From: Thermococcus alcaliphilus | GTDB taxonomy: Archaea; Methanobacteriota_B; Thermococci; Thermococcales; Thermococcaceae | DNA length: 64,000 bases | Direction: 5' to 3' | NCBI RefSeq assembly: GCF_024054535.1 | Contig: NZ_JAMXLV010000020.1 | Span: 186,001 to 250,000 of the forward strand | Part shown: one piece after another, positions 4,979 to 27,695 of the stretch | Layout: the number at the start of each line of letters is the position of its first letter | How positions within the stretch are numbered: position 1 is the first letter of the stretch | The notes under the pieces: generated by a model | Told to the model about the DNA's origin: nothing | What the model saw: the letters and a program-made list of their open reading frames with translations, nothing else | Database searches by the model: none | Position numbers and translations under genes: made by a program

Positions 4979-5023
4979 TGCTTTCACCTCGGGTGATATT
5001 TGAGGTTTCTCTTTAAAGCTTTT

Positions 5024-27408: not shown

Positions 27409-27475
27409 GAGTGCTTCTTTTCCTCAGGCCTTTAAATCTTTTTTGTTCATCAATGAATAAATCAGTGCAGAAAAG

Positions 27476-27536
27476 CTTATAAATATGTTTACAATCATCA
27501 AGATTTGGTATCCCTGTATTATCACTCAAAGTGATA
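27476..27536 (+). promoter_or_regulatory. Promoter with a Thermococcales glycolytic motif
   Basis: A TATA box CTTATAAATA (27476-27485) predicts transcription from about 27507. Just downstream at 27520-27536 is TATCAC, five bases, GTGATA, a perfect match to the motif bound by the sugar-responsive regulator Tgr/TrmBL1. In studied genes a motif downstream of the TATA box is the repressing arrangement, as for glycolytic genes. The site serves the 47-codon gene that starts at 27552. Confidence 0.65.
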
Positions 27537-27551
27537 CAAGAGGTGAAAAAC

Positions 27552-27695
27552 ATGCTCGCGAGAATAGTCTACTACAAGAGGAATTCCATCCCCGAAGAGG
27601 AGATAGTTGTGGTTAGCAAAGTAGAGAAAGCCCTTGAAATAGCGAGAAGGAAGTTAGGGATAGAAGTTGTAGGATTTGAAGTCGAAATAATTTGA
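27552..27695 (+). CDS. Small protein of 47 residues under a glycolytic-motif promoter
   Basis: The frame begins at the ATG at 27552, 5-6 nt after a strong GAGGTGA, and reads MLARIVYYKRNSIPEEEIVV, then VSKVEKALEIARRKLGIEVV and ends GFEVEII. It is predicted as beta-helix-beta (IVVVSKVEKALEIARRKLGIEVVGFEV), soluble. The third-position pattern is that of a coding gene, and it has its own TATA box. No family recognised. The adjacent convergent gene is phosphoglycerate mutase. Confidence 0.7.
   Translation: MLARIVYYKRNSIPEEEIVVVSKVEKALEIARRKLGIEVVGFEVEII

Follow-up and report, generated by a model that had tools for sequence, protein, structure and literature searches.

Does a short open reading frame that follows a glycolytic promoter motif in Thermococcus alcaliphilus belong to the sugar regulon of this archaeon, and does it encode a protein at all? 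The frame lies in a stretch of 64,000 nucleotides of contig NZ_JAMXLV010000020.1 (hereafter the window, meaning the whole stretch analysed). An earlier note had listed a TATA box, a Thermococcales glycolytic motif (TGM, TATCAC-N5-GTGATA), a GAGGTGA and a frame of 47 codons; all four were found in the window sequence, preceded by a further promoter element:

27444–27455, + strand: copy 1 of an upstream promoter element, TGTTCATCAATG (consensus TTnTGTnCATTGATGT), its start counted at 32 bp before the TATA octamer
27464–27475, + strand: possible second copy of the element, AGTGCAGAAAAG (consensus TGTnCAnnAAnG), overlapping the BRE position
27477–27484, + strand: TATA box TTATAAAT, from the sequence and from a TATA column block kept in 59 orthologous promoters
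27520–27536, + strand: perfect TGM TATCACTCAAAGTGATA (0 mismatches), predicted Tgr/TrmBL1 operator
27540–27546, + strand: ribosome-binding site GAGGTGA, from the sequence; orthologues keep a G-rich block
27552–27695, + strand: 47-codon gene MLARIVYYKRNSIPEEEIVVVSKVEKALEIARRKLGIEVVGFEVEII from its ATG (27552) to the end of its stop codon (27695), with 61 intact orthologues, purifying selection and a structure model at pLDDT 95

Counted from the TATA centre (27480–27481), transcription would be expected to start at about 27507, with the TGM beginning at about +13. The frame is quite probably a genuine small protein gene of the Tgr/TrmBL1 sugar regulon, transcribed as a single-gene mRNA under repression relieved by sugar.

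Perfect TGMs were rare, with two sites in the 1.89 Mb genome against none for the reversed control, and one to five sites in each of 33 relatives against a control total of one. At two mismatches the genome held 62 sites versus 76 for the control, which is no enrichment; a weak match alone therefore means little, and position and conservation carry the argument. Conservation was observed directly: 56 of the 61 orthologues had a TGM (at most two mismatches; 19 perfect) no more than 42 nt from the start codon, where shuffled regions gave about 0.1% each, and in 46 it started exactly at -32 or -33. A recognisable TGM was absent from the other five orthologues. TATA box and TGM were 43 bp apart in the genus of the window and in genus g5; in Thermococcus sensu stricto they were 22 bp apart. 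Across this shift of 21 bp, about two helical turns, the motif itself was conserved; the geometry of blocking may thus differ between genera.

The TGM is the described binding site of Tgr/TrmBL1, and its position downstream of the TATA box denotes repression relieved by sugar (PMC4158304, PMC4706686). In the same genome, TGMs with zero or one mismatch adjoined genes coding for a GH57 enzyme, a PadR regulator, a sugar-binding protein, FBPase, PGI, enolase and two alpha-amylases, as well as a gene of the aldehyde ferredoxin oxidoreductase family whose N-terminus and neighbours point to GAPOR. Within the window, a one-mismatch TGM at 4982–4998 abutted the start of the enolase gene (- strand). The genome also encoded a TrmB-family protein of 341 residues (G000:C14:77291-78313) beside the maltodextrin transport operon; 83 of the 94 family genomes contained a close match to it, and its context and family mark it as Tgr/TrmBL1-like.

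Like the repressed glycolytic genes of the Tgr (T. kodakarensis) and TrmBL1 (P. furiosus) regulons, the 47-codon gene has its motif, a perfect copy, past the TATA box, and it occurred in one genome with a Tgr-like regulator and classic targets. Unlike the enzymes and transporters among those targets, it encodes a protein of 47 residues and carries an extra conserved element upstream. In P. furiosus, TrmBL1 ChIP-seq likewise identified a target, PF1085.1n, that encodes a hypothetical protein and has a TGM past its promoter (PMC4706686); these two features are the points in common. The open-access literature on T. kodakarensis and T. onnurineus transcriptomes and on T. barophilus held nothing on the 47-codon gene.

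On the published rule, Tgr repression relieved by sugar appears to be the best regulatory model. Without maltooligosaccharides, Tgr would sit on the TGM just past the transcription start and block RNA polymerase; with sugar present it would let go, and a single-gene mRNA for a protein of 47 to 49 residues would be made alongside glycolytic and starch-degrading enzymes. Binding, repression and release by sugar are carried over here from published Tgr/TrmBL1 work. The motif could instead serve another TrmB paralogue, so that the gene would answer some other sugar or signal. The T. alcaliphilus genome encodes at least four full-length TrmB-type proteins, and members of the family overlap in the sites that they bind (PMC10667668); the described assignment of the TGM to Tgr/TrmBL1 and the presence of the Tgr-like protein almost throughout the family nevertheless make another regulator unlikely.

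The neighbourhood bears on which gene the TGM controls and on what the protein might do. Genes for Sm and MobB-like proteins and a divergent JAB-domain gene upstream were kept in most loci with sufficient flank. In the clusters of neighbours inspected, the genuine genes downstream ran towards the 47-codon gene. Because these downstream genes are convergent, the gene is probably monocistronic.

The earlier proposal of sugar control stood with respect to a selected gene, a conserved TGM past the TATA box, a Tgr-like regulator and a TGM regulon; the accompanying link to phosphoglycerate mutase did not, and proved weak. A 2,3-bisphosphoglycerate-dependent mutase gene was present in 20 of the 94 genomes, versus 61 with the 47-codon gene, and lay next to it in only 11 of the 61 loci, in each case convergently. 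The mutase does adjoin the gene in the window, and 19 of the 20 mutase genomes hold at least part of the 47-codon gene, a figure confounded by shared ancestry; most genomes with the gene nevertheless have no such mutase, and a dedicated regulator of the neighbouring enzyme is highly improbable. The broader role as a regulator of a glycolytic enzyme is a guess.

Control of the divergent JAB-domain gene, rather than of the 47-codon gene, would fit the single short intergenic region common to both in the genus of the window. In most Thermococcus sensu stricto loci, however, JAB is some 300–400 bp away with another gene between, while the TGM keeps its distance of about 32 nt to the start of the 47-codon gene. 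Where the latter is missing, the TGM is missing too although JAB stays: no TGM (at most two mismatches) was found in about 900 bp beside JAB at nine loci with JAB and neither small gene (genera g3, g2 and g6), nor over the same distance at six Thermococcus loci with JAB and a presumed upstream paralogue of 49 residues. JAB as the target of the TGM is accordingly hard to credit. The search suggested in the earlier note, for the 47-residue protein with the same upstream motif, was run across the family genomes, and both were kept together; at the loci compared, the gene and its TGM are present or absent together, as observed directly. On this sequence evidence the gene probably belongs to the sugar response, as a member not characterised before, with protein and site kept together across Thermococcus relatives.

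A second regulator probably acts on the gene as well. In 59 promoters anchored on the TATA box, conserved columns TTnTGTnCATTGATGT occupied roughly the stretch from 35 to 20 bp upstream, and conserved columns TGTnCAnnAAnG directly adjoined it; columns C-8, A-7, A-4, A-3 and G-1 relative to the TATA octamer were conserved, and part of TGTnCAnnAAnG may simply be the BRE. Of 60 orthologous promoters, 48 matched the 11-mer core GTTCATTGATG with no more than two mismatches, as against about 1.9% in shuffles, and many matches sat 31 bp upstream of the scored TATA match. At loci missing the 47-codon gene, a search allowing one mismatch did not find the element. The best combined match of the element pair in the window was at 27444, with one mismatch. 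Among the other loci of the T. alcaliphilus genome scanned, TGM promoters included, L075 was the only combined match at two mismatches, and just two matches to a single element came up, a total close to chance expectation. Since the element is conserved, lies at a near-fixed distance from the TATA box and is absent along with the gene, a second regulator working through it is the simplest reading; its occurrence only where the gene is found points to a regulator that acts on that gene too. The element at 27444–27475 was unlike any operator that we could name.

Intact orthologues of the gene were found in 61 of the 94 family genomes, with a partial one in G088. None of the 61 contained an internal stop, and start and length were kept; 28 aligned members ranged from 47 to 49 residues and shared nine invariant positions. 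Purifying selection was observed directly in the substitutions, with dN/dS of about 0.03–0.15 and, pooled over 15 Thermococcus members, a pN of 0.03 versus a pS of 0.42. The comparison of L001 with L002 gave eight synonymous and no amino-acid changes and another gave 16.5 versus 7.5, counts to be read with non-synonymous sites about 3.6 times more numerous than synonymous ones. The frame therefore appears to be translated and under selection, and the claim of a tiny protein gene held up; the internal stops that would speak against it were not seen in the 61 orthologues. That the frame is a chance one, or that its transcript acts as a non-coding RNA or leader, as its shortness and the lack of a family model covering it might suggest, is already largely refuted by synonymous changes far outnumbering amino-acid changes, by the unbroken frame with its kept start, length and nine residues and by a confident compact fold model, and was rejected on the substitution pattern as having next to no probability.

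The 47-residue protein family was not found in the nine genomes of genus g3 (taken to be Pyrococcus, though P. furiosus may be absent from the set), profile search included, and a phylum-wide search gave no convincing relative outside the Thermococcaceae family genomes; a wider contig scan with one short pattern returned matches from Thermococcales only. Where genomes lacked the gene, weak matches were either chance ones or, for some Thermococcus genomes, matches to the upstream paralogue. The gene would bring a strongly conserved, uncharacterised small protein into a regulon that ranks among the best studied in archaea; the family includes genetically tractable species.

The presumed paralogue, a frame of 49 codons (MKWALTLHGG...), was found in most Thermococcus sensu stricto (g4) genomes, ending about 130–205 bp upstream of the 47-codon gene, and remained at some g4 loci where the latter was missing; it was not found in the genome of the window. 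At L029 it spanned about -342 to -192 from the start of the 47-codon gene (locus coordinates about 1159–1309). No TGM of its own was detected in the 420 bp examined at L029 and other g4 loci. Profiles of the two families aligned over 34 columns (hhalign probability 90.5), and both proteins were modelled as beta-beta-alpha-beta folds (pLDDT 95 for the 47-residue and 94 for the 49-residue protein); for these two reasons a common origin is likely, though short of proof.

The 47-residue protein of the window matched no Pfam, NCBIfam or PHROG model, and single members of its family gave scattered weak matches to family models. In a PDB sequence search the best matches covered a helix only, and those to FtsH, limited to residues 20–39, were judged to be chance. 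A PDB fold search returned no match below E 0.6. The best structural resemblance was that of the paralogue model to T7 Gp2 (chain 4lk0_M; TM 0.73–0.76, E 0.68); the model of the 47-residue protein reached TM 0.49–0.52 against the same chain. Gp2, an inhibitor of RNA polymerase, and YkzG, the RNA polymerase epsilon subunit, have a similar small fold. This resemblance is suggestive only: the best E-value of 0.68 is not significant, the searches showed no sequence relationship, and the common topology is simple enough to recur by chance.

In cells fed with sugar, the 47-residue protein might act by binding to a partner protein or to copies of itself, a tentative role to which we give somewhat less than an even chance. 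That both small proteins are Gp2/epsilon-like binders of the archaeal RNA polymerase is a long shot; if true, Tgr would be turning on a tiny protein that in turn adjusts transcription during growth on sugar.

Two further TGMs lay just upstream of a gene whose product, judged by eye, resembles a rubrerythrin/ferritin-like protein, one with a single mismatch in the T. alcaliphilus genome at G000:C24:196-212 (L081) and one with no mismatch at L150 (G093).
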